Below the pieces are notes generated by a model. That model ran no database searches and was not told the origin of the DNA. It worked only from the letters and a program-made list of their open reading frames with translations. Shown piece after piece: positions 28,891-52,668 of a stretch of DNA of 64,000 nucleotides. Source of the stretch: Gemmatimonadota bacterium. GTDB lineage: Bacteria; Gemmatimonadota; Gemmatimonadetes; Gemmatimonadales; Gemmatimonadaceae. Every line of letters starts with the position of its first letter. Position 1 is the first letter of the stretch. A program made the translations under genes and the position numbers. The stretch lies in contig JAQBQB010000002.1 of NCBI GenBank assembly GCA_028287235.1, forward strand, positions 310,001 to 374,000, in the 5' to 3' direction.

Positions 28891-28926
28891 AGACTCGAAC
28901 CCGTGACGTCCAGCTTGGCAAGCTGC
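28891..28926 (-). repeat. tRNA-Gly(GCC) 3'-half remnant, att-like
   Basis: Read on the minus strand, this carries the T-arm (GGGTTCGAGT), the variable region and part of the anticodon arm with loop TTGCCAA, giving anticodon GCC. The acceptor strand and the D-arm are missing. Left of it, TCTAATAACGATTTGCAG resembles TCTAACAACGAGTTACAG beside the intact tRNA-Gly at 52596. Right of it, AGCGAA..GGTCGTTGC resembles the sequence beside the remnant at 47572. It reads as the scar of an element that used a tRNA-Gly as attachment site. Confidence 0.6.
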
Positions 28927-45616: not shown

Positions 45617-45649
45617 CAATTTCTCTTTTGGTGTAACCACGTAGTACAG

Positions 45650-45678
45650 AGCGCGCGACGGGACTCGAACCTACGACG
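45650..45678 (-). repeat. Degraded tRNA-Gly 3'-end remnant, att-like
   Basis: Minus-strand sequence shows an acceptor strand (CGCGCGC) and T-loop (GGTTCGAGTCCCG) closely matching the intact tRNA-Gly(CCC) at 52596. The T-stem no longer pairs fully, and no anticodon or D-arm follows. The flank on its 3' side (GTGTAACCACGTAGTACAGA) also resembles the intact tRNA flank. It marks the outer, older end of the tRNA-Gly-associated island. Confidence 0.65.
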
Positions 45679-45739
45679 CCCCGGTGGACCCTGCCCGAAT
45701 CACGCCTAGATTGCGTCCATGTCTCGCAGGAGGTCCGTG

Positions 45740-47534: not shown

Positions 47535-47571
47535 CTACTGTAAACCCTTCAAGATGTACCACTTACACTAG

Positions 47572-47617
47572 AGCGGGCGACGGGACTCGAACCCGTGACG
47601 TCCAGCTTGGGAAGCTG
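47572..47617 (-). repeat. tRNA-Gly(CCC) 3'-half remnant, att site candidate
   Basis: This is near-identical to the 3' part of the intact tRNA at 52596: acceptor strand, a fully paired T-arm, variable loop and anticodon loop TTCCCAA. It ends in the anticodon stem at CAGC, where identity stops. The 5' half is missing, so it cannot be a working tRNA. It is the expected left junction of an element integrated into the 3' part of tRNA-Gly(CCC). Confidence 0.8.
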
Positions 47618-47719
47618 AGCGAAAACAACTGGTTCGTTGCCTAGGGCGCTAAATCCGGACTCCAGACGCCCTGCTCACTGCGATCTCCGCTAAGAAATTG
47701 GCGCGGTTAGCGCTTCGTT

Positions 47720-47736
47720 GGCCCCCAGCGGCCCCC
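47720..47736. repeat. Two GGCCCCC repeats near the left island junction
   Basis: GGCCCCC occurs at 47720-47726 and 47730-47736, about 100 bases inside the remnant at 47572. Three more copies (one inverted) lie at 52483-52544, the same kind of distance inside the intact tRNA. Paired arrays like this can be arm-type binding sites of a tyrosine recombinase; this is inference. Confidence 0.45.
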
Positions 47737-47793
47737 AAAAACCGAGCGGCGTTTTGGCCGCGGTTTGTGAGTTTGATCCGACGCGATGCTCGA

Positions 47794-48315
47794 TTAGAGT
47801 TTGTTCAACATTTGGTCGAGAGCCGAGTCGGCTTTCACCAACGCCGTACGAATGAGTGGTAATGTCCGCTCAATCCACTCGAGCGCGAGTTTCCGCTCGG
47901 ATTCTCCGGCAATCGTCGGATCGTACATCGATCCTTTCCTGAGTCCGCGGATTTCCTCAGATTCTGCGACTAGATCTCCAAGCGCATCACCACCGAGCGC
48001 CCCAGCGGCGTGAAACGCCATTTCATGATGACCCTGCCCCGATGATGGTTTCAACCCATGAACCGCAAGCAGCGCAAGCGCGGCGAGATGTCCAGCATCG
48101 TATGCCAGCCGAATCGCGCTATCGACGCTCAACTGCTCGATCGCGGCGTCGTTCGCCGACTCGGTGGCCTTTTGCCAGACGGCCGCGACATCAACTTGCG
48201 CGAAGTCTTGCTCCTTGAGGCGACGATCGTCGAGCAAGAGACGAATCCGATCAGGGACGTTCACACTGAGCCGATACGTCACGGCGTTTGTCGGCCGTCG
48301 CTTATCCGTGGCCAC
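47794..48315 (-). CDS. HEPN-domain protein, probable toxin of an MNT/HEPN pair
   Basis: From GTG at 48315 this is 173 residues. It is all-helical with the HEPN pattern: KEQDFAQVDVAAVWQKATES, SAIRLAYDAGHLAALALLAV, HGLKPSSGQGHHEMAFHAAG and ESERKLALEWIERTLPLIRT. HEPN toxins are RNases and are neutralised by a partner nucleotidyltransferase, here the gene immediately upstream. The GTG lies four bases after that gene's stop and follows GAGG. An ATG at 48396 would overlap the partner by 77 bases and is less likely. A clean RxxxxxH site is ambiguous, so activity is uncertain. Confidence 0.78.
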   Translation of the reverse strand: MATDKRRPTNAVTYRLSVNVPDRIRLLLDDRRLKEQDFAQVDVAAVWQKATESANDAAIEQLSVDSAIRLAYDAGHLAALALLAVHGLKPSSGQGHHEMAFHAAGALGGDALGDLVAESEEIRGLRKGSMYDPTIAGESERKLALEWIERTLPLIRTALVKADSALDQMLNKL

Positions 48316-48319
48316 GCGC

Positions 48320-49027
48320 TTAGCCGCCTCTGACCTGATCGACTGAAATGCCGGCCGCGAGAGCGACGGGCGTGAGCGCGTCTGGAGTTCCAGCAACCCA
48401 CTGCTTTGGACCTGTCAACACCTCGCGTACGAACCGAGATCCAGGCAATGCATGATTGCCTAAGCGCTCGGCCAACTTCTCAAGCGTGTATCGAGTTGGA
48501 TTGACTTCGCGACCAAGAAGTACAGCTGCTTCGCCGAGCTGCCGATGAAGCGCCTTTGGATCCGCCGCTACGCCTTCCACCACAAACACGTCGATGTCAC
48601 TGTCTGGACGAGCCGTTCCTTTTGCGCTCGACCCGAACACAAAGGCCGCCGTGACTCCCTCGACGTCGCAGAGCGAATCGCGTAGCAATTCGGCCGGGTT
48701 GCTTGGATCAGCAATGAGAAGTCGTATACCGCGCCAAAATCGCGAGCTCGGTTGCGCAACGTATCGAACGAGCCGGCCGTCTACAACTCTCTTTAGCGCG
48801 CCGATCTCAGTGAGATGATCGAGGTCGCGTTGCGCAGAAGCACCGCCGAGACCAAGCGTTCGCTGCAGCTCACGTGCGTAAGGATGCGCCGTTGGATGCG
48901 TCGCGAAGTATCGGACCGTTTTCTCAGCGGACGTCGGCACGCCAAGCGCATCGAGCATCGTCACAGGACGATTGGACGTCTTCTTGCCCTGACGGACACG
49001 CCGCGCCCGCTCTTGGCTCGTTGGCAT
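48320..49027 (-). CDS. MNT-type nucleotidyltransferase with winged-helix domain, probable antitoxin
   Basis: This 235-residue protein has an N-terminal winged helix (AEKTVRYFATHPTAHPYARE, LGGASAQRDLDHLTEIGALK). The minimal nucleotidyltransferase domain FVFGSSAKGTARPDSDIDVF shows the GSxxxG and DxD catalytic motifs. In MNT/HEPN modules this partner modifies and silences the HEPN toxin. The winged helix makes autoregulation likely; a dyad overlaps the start codon (49027-49045). The next gene (HEPN) follows after four bases on the same strand. Confidence 0.88.
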   Translation of the reverse strand: MPTSQERARRVRQGKKTSNRPVTMLDALGVPTSAEKTVRYFATHPTAHPYARELQRTLGLGGASAQRDLDHLTEIGALKRVVDGRLVRYVAQPSSRFWRGIRLLIADPSNPAELLRDSLCDVEGVTAAFVFGSSAKGTARPDSDIDVFVVEGVAADPKALHRQLGEAAVLLGREVNPTRYTLEKLAERLGNHALPGSRFVREVLTGPKQWVAGTPDALTPVALAAGISVDQVRGG

Positions 49028-49045
49028 GATCTATAATTTAGATCA
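49027..49045. promoter_or_regulatory. Dyad at the start of the MNT/HEPN operon
   Basis: TGATCTA and TAGATCA flank a five-base AT spacer, forming a 19-base inverted repeat that begins at the first base of the MNT start codon. The AT-rich stretch probably also contains the -10 region. Binding of the MNT winged helix here would repress the operon. Confidence 0.55.
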
Positions 49046-49189
49046 ATTACTTGATCCAGGCAAGGCCTAGAAGCGGCCAGCTGCCCCCGCTGGCGCCTTC
49101 AGTTAACCGCTTCTCTGCGCGGTCGCGGCTCTCCGCGAACTTGATTCGGTCGACGATGATTCTTCCCGACTCGTACGTCTGATCCAGTT

Positions 49190-49927
49190 CTAGCGTTTGA
49201 CGAGCGTCACAATGGCGACCAGCGCCTCTCCGGCATTCCGGTCGATATGCGTCGCTCGCTTGTGGATCGGTTGGCCGGTCAGGTCCGGATTGACGACGAT
49301 CAATGACGAGCCGTTGTTGAGAGCAATATTCGGAAGTTGTCTTGCCGGCCACACCTGATTGGACGTTCCGATTGACAACATCACATCGCAACCAAGTGCC
49401 GCGCTCTGCGCGGCTTCCAGCTCATTCATCGGAAGATCTTCTTCGAACATCACGACGTCTGGGCGAAGCATCCCACGACAAACATCGCAACTAGGCGTCA
49501 CGGGTGCTTCAGCCCATGGCAATCGCTGGCCGCACGCCGAACACCGGACCTCGCGCAGGTTTCCATGGAGTTCAACGACTTGCTTCGAACCAGCTCGTTG
49601 GTGTAAGGAGTCAATGTTCTGCGTGACGACGGTGAGACCGGGCACCAGAGTGGCCAACTCGACGATCGCCAAATGGGCCGCGTTCGGCTCTTTGTCCGCC
49701 AAACTCAGAGCTCGCTGCCGGTACCACTCATACGCTTCAGGCAGGTTCTTGGCGTATCCTGCGGGGTTGGCAAAGCGCTCCATTTTCTGCCGCGACCACA
49801 GGCCGTCATCATCTCCTCGGTATGTCGGAATGCCGCTCTCAGCGGAGACACCGGCGCCGGTGAACACGACAACTGACTTCGCCGCACGAAGTAGGACGGC
49901 GGCAGCGGACAATTCGCTGGCACTCAT
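49190..49927 (-). CDS. Sir2 family NAD-dependent deacylase (sirtuin)
   Basis: This 245-residue protein has all sirtuin motifs: VVVFTGAGVSAESGIPTYRG, VVTQNIDSLHQRAG, ELHGNLREVRC and LSIGTSNQVWPA. It also has two zinc cysteine pairs (CSACG, CDVCRG). It should remove acyl groups from lysine using NAD and release O-acyl-ADP-ribose. It is a classical sirtuin, not the SIR2-SLOG form of Thoeris ThsA. The ATG overlaps the DUF1810 stop as ATGA (49924-49927), so it is the last coupled gene of a three-gene operon whose first protein carries a Macro-like domain. Confidence 0.92.
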   Translation of the reverse strand: MSASELSAAAVLLRAAKSVVVFTGAGVSAESGIPTYRGDDDGLWSRQKMERFANPAGYAKNLPEAYEWYRQRALSLADKEPNAAHLAIVELATLVPGLTVVTQNIDSLHQRAGSKQVVELHGNLREVRCSACGQRLPWAEAPVTPSCDVCRGMLRPDVVMFEEDLPMNELEAAQSAALGCDVMLSIGTSNQVWPARQLPNIALNNGSSLIVVNPDLTGQPIHKRATHIDRNAGEALVAIVTLVKR

Positions 49928-50394
49928 GACGGCGGCAGAACGTGACGTTTCCGCGACAACCCACCATCCGACTTGCCCCGAGCCGCGAGCAAGTCCAGAG
50001 ACACCTGATCGAGTTCGCCGGCGAAGTAATTCTCGATTGCCAAGGCAAATGGCCCATCGGACGCGGCCTTGGAAAACAGCGTCATCGATGAGCGGAATTT
50101 CATTGCGTCGATGGATCCGAAGATTTCGATGATGCTCCGGCCTGTGGTTTCGTTGACCAGAGTCGTGCATTCGTTGAGGCGCCTGCCTAGTATCGGATGC
50201 TTCCAGTAGGCGACGGCTTCATCCAGCGATCCAATTCCGAAGAATTGAGATGTCGAAGAATGGCCCAGCCCGGCGAGCTGGGGAAAGATGAACCACATCC
50301 AGTGCCCCCGTTTCTGGCCATTGCGTAATTCCTGTAGCACTTCGGCGTAAACCGGTTCCTGCGCCTCGAGGAATCTTTCCAGGTCGTAGGGCAT
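49924..50394 (-). CDS. DUF1810 family protein
   Basis: This 156-residue protein has the DUF1810 sequence: YDLERFLEAQEPVYAEVLQE, GQKRGHWMWFIFPQLAGLGH, FFGIGSLDEAVAYWKHPILG and SSMTLFSKA. The family is widespread and without established function. The ATG at 50392-50394 lies two bases after the stop of the hydrolase-Macro gene, and its own stop overlaps the sirtuin start, so all three are co-translated. The tight context suggests a role in NAD or ADP-ribose-linked chemistry, which is inference. Confidence 0.9.
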   Translation of the reverse strand: MPYDLERFLEAQEPVYAEVLQELRNGQKRGHWMWFIFPQLAGLGHSSTSQFFGIGSLDEAVAYWKHPILGRRLNECTTLVNETTGRSIIEIFGSIDAMKFRSSMTLFSKAASDGPFALAIENYFAGELDQVSLDLLAARGKSDGGLSRKRHVLPPS

Positions 50395-50396
50395 GG

Positions 50397-51923
50397 CTAG
50401 TGTCGACCGATCGATCCGACGATCGACAAAGCCTGCTTGATTCGGACCGGTTGAATTTCTATCGGACTGCGCGCGTCCCTTCGAAACACTACGATGGTTA
50501 CTTGCCGTAGCGGGTTGCGAGGACGACGCGCTTCTTGAGAGATGGCCAGCAGCAAGCCGCACAGCGCCTCCGCCGGTTCGATGCCGCCGTGACCCGCTCC
50601 GAGAACTGGTATGATGGCGTTGTTAAGTCGGGCATCGGCCATTCGTCGAACGAGGTCTTCGATCGCCGGGAATAAATACGACACTTGTGCGGCGAGCCCG
50701 ACACCTGCCCGCTGCGTTGTGGTCGATAGCAGGGCGATCGGGATCGGCGACCCGAGTGGCGATTGAAGCAGCAGGCATCGACCGATTCCGAAACTCATAC
50801 CTGATTCGCTTTCTGTCTTTGCAGTCGGGTTGCCGTGGCCAAACCGCGAGAGACATTCCCGTTTGACATCAGCCATGAATTCTTGGCTGCGACCACCTAG
50901 GCGTTTCGCAACCCATGACCCAAGCGCACTCCGCGAATCGGCGGCACAGTTGTCATCGAAATACTCATTACACGGAAGGACAGCCACAGTATTGGCGGCC
51001 ACAGACTGATCTTCCATCCTCCCAGCCCGGATCTGGATCTCGCAGCTCCCCACCGTGGAGATGAGAGATTCGCCAGTGTCCAGAAACTCTGGTTCGCTCG
51101 GTAGACGGTTGCTACCGGTGTGAAAAGGGCTATTGTCCTCGCGTGTCACCTGGACGATGAACTCGACGACTGACTTGTGGATCTGAGCCTCGCGCGTGGC
51201 GGGCTTGCAGATGGTAAAATGGTCTTCTGGCAGCGGAATGGCGGTGTCGCCGTCGACGTGCGGATCGCCGCTCGAAACAACTCGCACGCTTGGACCGCGA
51301 ATACCCAGCCAGATAGGCGTTGCCACCCCGTCTGTCTCCGAGAAGCTTCGGACCGAGAACCCGAGCTCTTTATGGAGCGCTCTGAATTGAGTGTTGAGTG
51401 TGGACAGGTGGGGATCGTGCATCCTCAAATCACCGACCTGCGGATTGCGGCGAAAGGGCACACGGAGGGCGTCGATAAGGGTTGCCAGTTGCGAACCGAA
51501 ATGCGGTGTAGCGATGAATACGACACCGCGAAGGTGCCGCGGAAAGAAATCATATCGCTGTACGCCCAACGTCTTCGCGTTCAGCAGGGCGGACTTTATC
51601 ACAAGGCCGCCCAAGCTATGCCCGATGACTACAAACGGTGCGGCTTGAAAGCGTGGCTCGCCAGCAAGGCGATCGAGCACTGCCGTTCCTTGAGCCGTAA
51701 GCGGCATGGCTCCAGCGGTCCACCCTGACAACGCCGCATCATATCCGAGGAGCCACACAGGGCATTGGAGTTCCTGACCAATCCAGTTCGGCCAGAGTGT
51801 GGATTCGTCCTTCGGATTCCGCATCCAGGTTTCCCGGATGTGGCCACCAAGACCGTGGACAAAAACCAAATGCGGGGATCGGGCCGCATGTTTTGGTTCG
51901 TAGAGGATTTCGAACGTGGCCAT
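50397..51923 (-). CDS. Alpha/beta-hydrolase fused to a ThsA-like Macro domain
   Basis: This 508-residue protein has two domains. Residues 1-260 are a lipase-like alpha/beta hydrolase: FVHGLGGHIRETW (oxyanion region), nucleophile Ser103 in VIGHSLGGLVIK and likely catalytic His235 in PEDHF. Residues about 305-495 have a Macro-type plan: NTVAVLPCNEYFDDN, then GRCLLLQSP, QVSYLFPAIEDLVRRMADAR and AIIPVLGAGHGGIEPAEALC. The N-E-Y-F-D start resembles the Macro domain of Thoeris ThsA proteins, which senses NAD-derived nucleotides. No membrane segment is seen. It heads the operon with DUF1810 and Sir2. Domain calls are by eye; the Macro call is the weaker. Confidence 0.72.
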   Translation of the reverse strand: MATFEILYEPKHAARSPHLVFVHGLGGHIRETWMRNPKDESTLWPNWIGQELQCPVWLLGYDAALSGWTAGAMPLTAQGTAVLDRLAGEPRFQAAPFVVIGHSLGGLVIKSALLNAKTLGVQRYDFFPRHLRGVVFIATPHFGSQLATLIDALRVPFRRNPQVGDLRMHDPHLSTLNTQFRALHKELGFSVRSFSETDGVATPIWLGIRGPSVRVVSSGDPHVDGDTAIPLPEDHFTICKPATREAQIHKSVVEFIVQVTREDNSPFHTGSNRLPSEPEFLDTGESLISTVGSCEIQIRAGRMEDQSVAANTVAVLPCNEYFDDNCAADSRSALGSWVAKRLGGRSQEFMADVKRECLSRFGHGNPTAKTESESGMSFGIGRCLLLQSPLGSPIPIALLSTTTQRAGVGLAAQVSYLFPAIEDLVRRMADARLNNAIIPVLGAGHGGIEPAEALCGLLLAISQEARRPRNPLRQVTIVVFRRDARSPIEIQPVRIKQALSIVGSIGRH

Positions 51924-51963
51924 TGAGAATAGTGGATGGATAACGCGAATATGCGATTTAAAG

Positions 51964-52360
51964 CGAATTTCGGCGATGCCGATCACTCAGCTCGGCTGAA
52001 GTCGATCACGCGTTTCGGTTCCAAACCGATCACTGATTTCGGTCGATGTCGATCAGACACTCCGGTGGAAGTCGATCACGTTGTGAGTGGGTGCCGCGAG
52101 ATCAGTAAAAACGCGTGCTACTCCGTGGGCGCCGTCAGTGGGTGGAGTTTGCGCGAGGAGCCTCCGGCGAGGGTGACGTCGTGCGTGATGCACTTGCCGA
52201 TCGAGGATCGCGTCGCCAAACGTCGCGTCCCCGACGAGGTCGTGCCAGTGCTGAGCGATGAGCGCCACACGGCGGCGGCTGCGATCCTTCGACGAGTTCG
52301 AGGAGATCCCGTCGCTCCCGATCGCCGAGCGCGGGATAGAGAGCCGTTCGACGCAAGAAT
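51964..52360. mobile_element. IS21-family remnant (terminal repeats plus broken istB)
   Basis: From 51964 to 52083 GCCGATCAC and GTCGATCACG-type sequences recur several times in direct orientation (CCGATCAC, GTCGATCACG, CCGATCAC, GTCGATCAG, GTCGATCACG), as at IS21-family ends. An istB fragment follows on the minus strand. The istA transposase and the other terminus are gone. It lies about 40 bases upstream of the hydrolase-Macro start and may have delivered or disrupted that gene's promoter. Confidence 0.6.
52130..52360 (-). pseudogene. istB: istB ATPase C-terminal remnant with frameshifts
   Basis: Three overlapping frames carry successive IstB pieces on the minus strand: ALYPALGDRERRDLLELVEG, then ALIAQHWHDLVGDATFGDAI plus LDRQVHHA, then VTLAGGSSRKLHPL. 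They match the C-terminal order ERRDLLELLEDRY, HW(H)xxxGDPTLADAILDRLVHNAH, LxGxSxRK of the IS21 helper ATPase. At least two frameshifts or small deletions separate them. Confidence 0.65.
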
Positions 52361-52384
52361 GCCAGCCGGGCAGGCTGGCATTCT
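52356..52384 (+). terminator. Strong hairpin at the edge of the IS21 remnant
   Basis: AGAATGCCAGCC (52356-52367) and GGCTGGCATTCT (52373-52384) form a perfect 12-bp stem with a five-base loop, followed by ATTTCTC on the plus strand. The right arm shares the 12-mer GCTGGCATTCTA with the anticodon/D region of the tRNA-Gly at 52596. Confidence 0.6.
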
Positions 52385-52478
52385 ATTTCTCATCTGCCCG
52401 ACGAGACGTCGCGCACTAGCCCGCGCAAGTCTCAGTGGCGTATCCACATCGCGCGCCACCGATTCGCTTCCGCCATCG

Positions 52479-52544
52479 AGTGGCCCCCAGCCAATATTCG
52501 GCCGGGGGCCACTCGAGACGCCAATAAGCGCAAAGTGGCCCCCA
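52479..52544 (-). terminator. Hairpin and GGCCCCC repeats downstream of tRNA-Gly
   Basis: GAGTGGCCCCC (52479-52489) and GGGGGCCACTC (52505-52515) form a perfect 11-bp stem. A third copy, GTGGCCCCCAC, lies at 52536-52546. On the minus strand this follows the tRNA by 80 bases and could terminate it, though the T-run is poor. The GGCCCCC words recur at the far end of the island (47720-47736), so they may instead be recombinase arm sites. Confidence 0.5.
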
Positions 52545-52595
52545 CACCAGAGTGCGGAGGCCGCTTCTTACTACTTGTCTAACAACGAGTTACAG

Positions 52596-52668
<73 letters not shown>

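Follow-up and report, generated by a model that had tools for sequence, protein, structure and literature searches.

A three-gene operon on the minus strand of the window (the whole analysed stretch of 64,000 nucleotides (nt), positions 310,001 to 374,000 of contig JAQBQB010000002.1 of a Gemmatimonadota bacterium) encodes, in this order and in the same direction, a hydrolase-Macro fusion, a DUF1810 protein and a sirtuin. The new part of this arrangement is the link of DUF1810 to a Macro domain of the ThsA type, the sensor-like domain of Thoeris defence proteins. The fusion protein is tentatively regarded here as an effector kept on stand-by in a Thoeris-like system that has no TIR gene next to it; DUF1810 would act on the signal and the sirtuin would be an accessory. 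The genes of the operon and the relevant parts of the fusion are as follows (aa, amino acids):

50397..51923, minus strand: hydrolase-Macro fusion (P0001), putative effector, 508 aa
51126..51875, minus strand: alpha/beta serine hydrolase domain of P0001, aa 17-266 (PADLOC DUF626_VIII, 2.1e-63)
51615..51617, minus strand: codon of Ser103 in GHSLGG, putative nucleophile (position counted from the sequence)
50472..51053, minus strand: ThsA-type Macro domain of P0001, about aa 291-484
50952..50969, minus strand: NEYFDD motif, aa 319-324 (position counted; invariant in 5 aligned sequences)
50583..50600, minus strand: GAGHGG loop, aa 442-447 (stands where ThsA has GSG-x-TR)
49924..50394, minus strand: DUF1810 protein (P0002), 156 aa, recurrent Macro partner
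49190..49927, minus strand: predicted canonical sirtuin of the deacylase type (P0003), 245 aa

The P0001 and P0002 genes are separated by a 2-nt gap (50395-50396), and the P0002 and P0003 genes share a 4-nt ATGA overlap (49924-49927). These coordinates bear out the arrangement described in a first-pass annotation of the sequence, and the two motifs that it had placed in one protein, GHSLGG of a hydrolase and the NEYFD that opens a second domain, were both located in P0001. All three frames are intact and contain the catalytic motifs.

Taken alone, the C-terminal domain of P0001 scores weakly as a Macro (PADLOC ThsA, 0.054; DarG macro domain 5m31, E 0.03) and has no match in Pfam, and hhalign comparison of a ThsA profile with the C-terminal half of the protein (P0004) also gave a weak result (probability 3.7%, E 0.012). 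A scan of viral contigs with NEYFDDxC revealed one locus (L074), and P0004 aligned with L074 led to three further loci, L075, L076 and L077, among 163 matching stretches of genome contigs (tblastn E-values, best first: 7e-33, 1e-31 and 1e-29, valid against the candidate stretches only). The four NEYFDD-Macro loci found besides the window are thus located in a viral contig (L074), Streptosporangiaceae (L075), Bacteroidales (L076) and Paractinoplanes (L077). Of the three full-length relatives that were scanned, L076 and L075 passed PF20016 (ThsA_Macro; 3.2e-10 and 3.2e-8); in Pfam the L077 Macro matched only PF01661, below the cut-off (0.021), and it matched PADLOC ThsA at 1e-10. When a five-row Macro profile (containing, for L074, just the first of its two pieces) was compared with solved structures, ThsA was matched first (9uuz, 1.7e-5; 8r66, 3.2e-5), followed by macroH2A. 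Since the relatives pass PF20016 and the profile best matches ThsA, the C-terminal domain of P0001 is assigned on sequence grounds to the ThsA-type Macros, and the Macro suspected in the first-pass annotation, weak by itself, holds through its relatives and the profile.

Searches of wider collections yielded few matches. Across the phylum, P0004 matched 10/395 at E 0.01, namely itself and weak matches (L005-L007 were read and resemble chance; the rest were judged by score alone), and PDLC00413 matched 1/390, an ordinary ThsA-like gene. In plasmids, P0004 gave no match at 0.01 and one Mycobacterium macro at E 1, and the L076 Macro had no match in plasmids or phage records. The five-row profile recovered just its seed in Bacteroidia (1/395), in the class of L077 (1/296) and in the phylum of the window (1/298).

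P0002 was identified as a member of DUF1810 (PF08837, 1e-54; 184.6 bits versus a cut-off of 25). A DUF1810 gene lies directly 3′ of the Macro gene in the window, L074 and L076, at distances of 2, 10 and 11 nt, respectively. The pair is therefore present in three of the five Macro loci (window included), which are all three of the non-TIR cases and belong to unrelated hosts. With DUF1810 in 6 of 98 related genomes, its position next to the Macro gene in three unrelated hosts is not to be expected by chance, though the cases are few. The three Macro-linked rows do not form one clade in a tree of 47 DUF1810 rows; a clade of P0002 and the DUF1810s of five relatives received a marginal p-AU of 0.044, which was not used. 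Alignment of 34 DUF1810 rows revealed 14 invariant residues, including R7, K28, H31, S46, R72, D96 and K99, which look enzyme-like. The DUF1810 model (pLDDT 91) has one clear fold match, Rv1873 (2jek), the other rows being weak (no NADAR-like fold was among them, which is no test of such a fold), and P0002 shares both the sequence family and the fold of this protein; whereas the DUF1810 family is mostly stand-alone in the loci seen, P0002 is coupled to a Macro. In viral contigs DUF1810 was found in 53 loci (L082-L134), with an adjoining Macro only in L090 (the contig of L074), and the other viral-contig DUF1810s may be phage-side players. Among 5.39 million openly licensed papers, two contain the name DUF1810 and, judged by title and start of abstract, neither is related to the subject; no function of DUF1810 was found, and no hydrolase-Macro-DUF1810 system by title and abstract.

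The effector domains joined to this Macro differ among the loci. The L076 Macro is fused to two transmembrane (TM) segments, and that of L074 is accompanied by a hydrophobic segment, its gene being split by a frameshift. In L075 (1758-3041) and L077 (1367-2590), a TIR domain of the CAP12/Pycsar type (PF10137, 1e-29) is fused to the NEYFDD Macro; no DUF1810 gene was found on these two contigs, which are short (4.2 and 3.7 kb) and cover more than 1 kb on either side of the Macro gene. In bacterial immunity, effector and sensor domains commonly occur in crossed combinations. Here, effector domains are swapped on this Macro and partner domains are swapped on the P0001 hydrolase.

The hydrolase domain also matched Abhydrolase_6 (3.5e-7) and DUF676 (2.1e-4) in Pfam. 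Ser103, Glu196 and His235 do not vary in an alignment of P0001 with four relatives from plasmids, and constitute a putative catalytic triad. The closest relative found (42%, 8e-60) heads a 1284-aa protein in L146 (2562-6416), which contains a P-loop-like stretch, APGSGKT (by reading), and is adjoined by phage genes. The same domain heads PD-Lambda-4_A (L066) and, by annotation, ABC-three-component, AAA-like and NB-ARC proteins; P0001 shares its N-terminal hydrolase with PD-Lambda-4 and further large defence proteins that begin with a hydrolase, but the sensor part differs. The match to DUF626_VIII, in which “VIII” presumably denotes retron type VIII, spans profile positions 10-245 of 474. With the type VIII effector P0001 therefore shares the N-terminal hydrolase domain, whereas the Macro replaces the rest of the profile, which is unmatched, and no reverse transcriptase was seen by reading among the open reading frames (ORFs) of the island that carries the operon. 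Domains of this hydrolase type thus recur in defence proteins. The complete hydrolase-Macro fusion was found nowhere but in the window: exact-peptide scans of genome contigs and viral contigs with P0001 revealed no relatives, and among 98 related genomes P0001 matched only itself, the other 97 being without a match.

By analogy, the P0001 operon probably works like Thoeris. In the reading that we tentatively prefer, the ThsA-type Macro would bind an NAD-derived nucleotide made during infection, and ligand binding would assemble or unlock the N-terminal serine hydrolase, comparable to the ThsA Macro, which binds ADP-ribose (ADPR) and oligomerises upon ligand binding (PMC11204291). The hydrolase would then attack an ester or peptide target of the host, most likely a membrane lipid, and the infected cell would be stopped. 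DUF1810 would make, convert or restrain the same signal, and the sirtuin would be optional. In favour of this reading are the ThsA-like relatives of the Macro, the swaps of effector domains on the Macro and of partner domains on the hydrolase, the closeness of the DUF1810 gene in three loci, the ADP-ribose context of L076 and the tRNA-Gly island with its PDC-M05 neighbours.

Several observations weigh against this reading. The single-sequence model of the full P0001 fusion was unusable (pLDDT 36.6). Five Macro loci are known, so that the 3/5 pairing rests on few cases, and of the 67 DUF1810 loci scanned (many contigs being short) 65 have no such Macro nearby; the other two, L090 and L081, are identical with L074 and L076. 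DUF1810 thus leads a life apart from the Macro. A single clade of Macro-linked DUF1810s was not rejected (p-AU 0.4) and the pairings need not be independent; therefore, no repeated origin of the pairing is claimed. In PMC11204291, N114 and T220 are reported as ADPR contacts of the ThsA Macro. Among the EcThsA ligand residues N114, S217 and T220, a weak alignment (numbering by count), in which NEYFD of the window stands at N96-D100, seems to place Leu at N114 and Gly-Gly at T220/R221; the ligand residues look unconserved, and the ligand may therefore differ from that of ThsA. Furthermore, 5 same-genus genomes yielded no clean empty site, and neither a TIR nor a reverse transcriptase nor another source of the signal was seen within the island, where the TIR negative covers the scanned genes of 47.5-52.6 kb, the rest of the genome not having been searched.

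Alternatively, P0001 could be the effector of a Thoeris system proper, its ligand being made by a TIR protein encoded elsewhere in the genome and DUF1810 and the sirtuin being passengers. The Macro is ThsA-like, TIR-Macro relatives exist, and ordinary ThsA-like genes lie by annotated TIR genes in three of the five plasmid stretches read (none is annotated in the other two). However, three hosts have DUF1810 directly behind the Macro and no TIR gene was seen beside it there, and the ThsA ligand residues appear changed in the weak alignment, which makes this explanation unlikely. With the TM-Macro ThsA of Thoeris (PF20016), to which the TM-Macro of L076 is related, P0001 has in common an N-terminal effector joined to a ThsA-type Macro that presumably senses a nucleotide. 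In contrast to that protein, it has no TM segment (no hydropathy segment >1.6) and carries a hydrolase instead; the window also differs in having no adjacent TIR gene, a DUF1810 partner, the GAGHGG loop and an apparent loss of N114 and T220. Because two defining features, the TM segment and the adjacent TIR gene, are missing, P0001 was not filed as TM-Macro Thoeris. Two TM-Macro ThsA-like genes together with several TIR-like genes (by reading) were observed in another viral contig (L079, 2458-7396).

The third gene of the operon encodes a protein with the features of a canonical deacylase-type sirtuin: P0003 matched SIR2 (3e-45) and NF001753 (above the cut-off), its best structure match was Sir2Af1 (2.9e-52), and the catalytic His (HG) and four zinc Cys are kept in the alignment to 4twi. 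Its YxxR motif (WYRQR) presumably recalls class III sirtuins. A 51% relative of P0003 in a sister genome (G003) has neither of the other operon genes nearby (by reading). In a reading that builds on the first-pass annotation, O-acyl-ADP-ribose or ADP-ribose would be made by the sirtuin and read by the Macro, which would fire the hydrolase. Deacylase sirtuin chemistry yields O-acyl-ADP-ribose, and both the type of P0003 and its ATGA coupling to DUF1810 suit this reading. Nevertheless, no sirtuin was seen in the ORF lists beside the other four NEYFDD-Macro loci, no P0003-like sirtuin was detected at E 0.01 beside the 67 DUF1810 loci, and a constantly active sirtuin would require gating. In addition, PMC11204291 reports that O-acetyl-ADP-ribose was not deacetylated by the ThsA Macro; in their discussion, the authors state that it can neither bind nor process this compound. 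The sirtuin is thus improbable as the signal maker, and its best reading is that of an accessory, a local addition coupled by translation.

The trio was found nowhere else, so the idea that the three genes form one recurrent system is not supported. What does recur is the Macro and DUF1810 pair, which the first-pass annotation had not singled out. Sirtuin and Macro also share one operon in the toxin-antitoxin-like pairs reported in PMC9503650; compared with these, the window has a sirtuin of the canonical deacylase type, a hydrolase-fused ThsA-type Macro and DUF1810 between them. A second sirtuin of the same genome (L145, 4427-7267, contig C22) was noted near a DUF676-like hydrolase on the opposite strand.

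Downstream of the TM-Macro and DUF1810 genes of L076 (9358-13118) lie genes for a GajB-like UvrD helicase, DarT (4e-15) and an ADP-ribosylglycohydrolase (1.4e-46), and this neighbourhood is thus ADP-ribose-centred, in keeping with the preferred reading. The presence of DarT and the glycohydrolase near this pair, as well as the GAGHGG glycine loop, which is nearer to the Macros of macroH2A and DarG than to that of ThsA, would fit a module for ADP-ribose processing or repair, in which the Macro strips ADP-ribose from targets, acyl-ADP-ribose esters are split by the hydrolase, and DUF1810 and the sirtuin contribute additional enzymes to this chemistry. Such a module is quite improbable, given that the relatives join this Macro to effector domains (TM and CAP12-type TIR) and that the hydrolase domain type is fused to many other sensor-like domains.

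The operon is located within an island of approximately 5 kb (47570-52594) with low GC content, bounded by tRNA-Gly and a partial copy of it. The remaining features of this region are:

52595..52668, minus strand: intact tRNA-Gly (CCC), right end of the island
47570..47617, minus strand: 48-nt copy (94%) of the tRNA-Gly 3′ half, attachment-site-like, left end
48320..49027, minus strand: nucleotidyltransferase (MNT-like), island neighbour (PADLOC PDC-M05A, 9.1e-32)
47794..48396, minus strand: nucleotidyltransferase partner, island neighbour (PADLOC PDC-M05B, 1.4e-12)
52053..52268, minus strand: IstB_IS21 fragment (4.3e-5, just under the cut-off)

The direct repeat of the tRNA 3′ end and the shifted composition (57-60% GC at 47-52 kb versus 62-70% outside, in rounded 1-kb steps) identify the region as a tRNA-borne island. 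The tRNA-associated island of the first-pass annotation is thereby sharpened; the toxin-antitoxin pair that it named corresponds to two genes matching the PADLOC candidate PDC-M05A/B, and its insertion sequence remnant to the IstB_IS21 fragment. From its overall interpretation, the ThsA-like Macro, the defence-type hydrolase and the defence-like tRNA island are retained, and the trio as a recurrent system is not. Short repeats are present at 51965-52080, and no integrase was seen among the island ORFs. In same-genus genomes, tRNA-Gly has other neighbours, for example a GNAT gene (G005) or genes for DUF5677 and SEC-C (G003). A sister genome contains a 149-bp match (76.5%) to 48070-48217 on the left side of this tRNA-Gly (L057, 1483-1629), and further short tRNA-Gly matches in the window (28892-28925 and 45631-45681) are perhaps old attachment sites. 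Despite the IS21 fragment, the att-like repeat and the frameshifted L074 Macro, it is very improbable that the operon is decaying cargo, i.e. fragments gathered in the island without present function, since its three frames are intact with their catalytic motifs.

DUF1810 is widespread and has one solved structure, and its tight pairing with the Macro yields a concrete, testable hypothesis for its role, namely that it may make, alter or destroy the ligand of the Macro. The preferred reading, P0001 as a stand-by effector, would add a hydrolase to the Macro-driven effectors and would be a case of NAD-nucleotide immunity in which no TIR gene lies nearby. A broader proposal, which we consider doubtful, is that DUF1810 may be an immune nucleotide-signalling enzyme that makes or converts the NAD-derived signal for a new Macro clade, within a TIR-independent Thoeris-like branch with exchangeable effectors (membrane, hydrolase). 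If this were true, the numerous DUF1810 genes found in viral contigs would act on this signal from the phage side.

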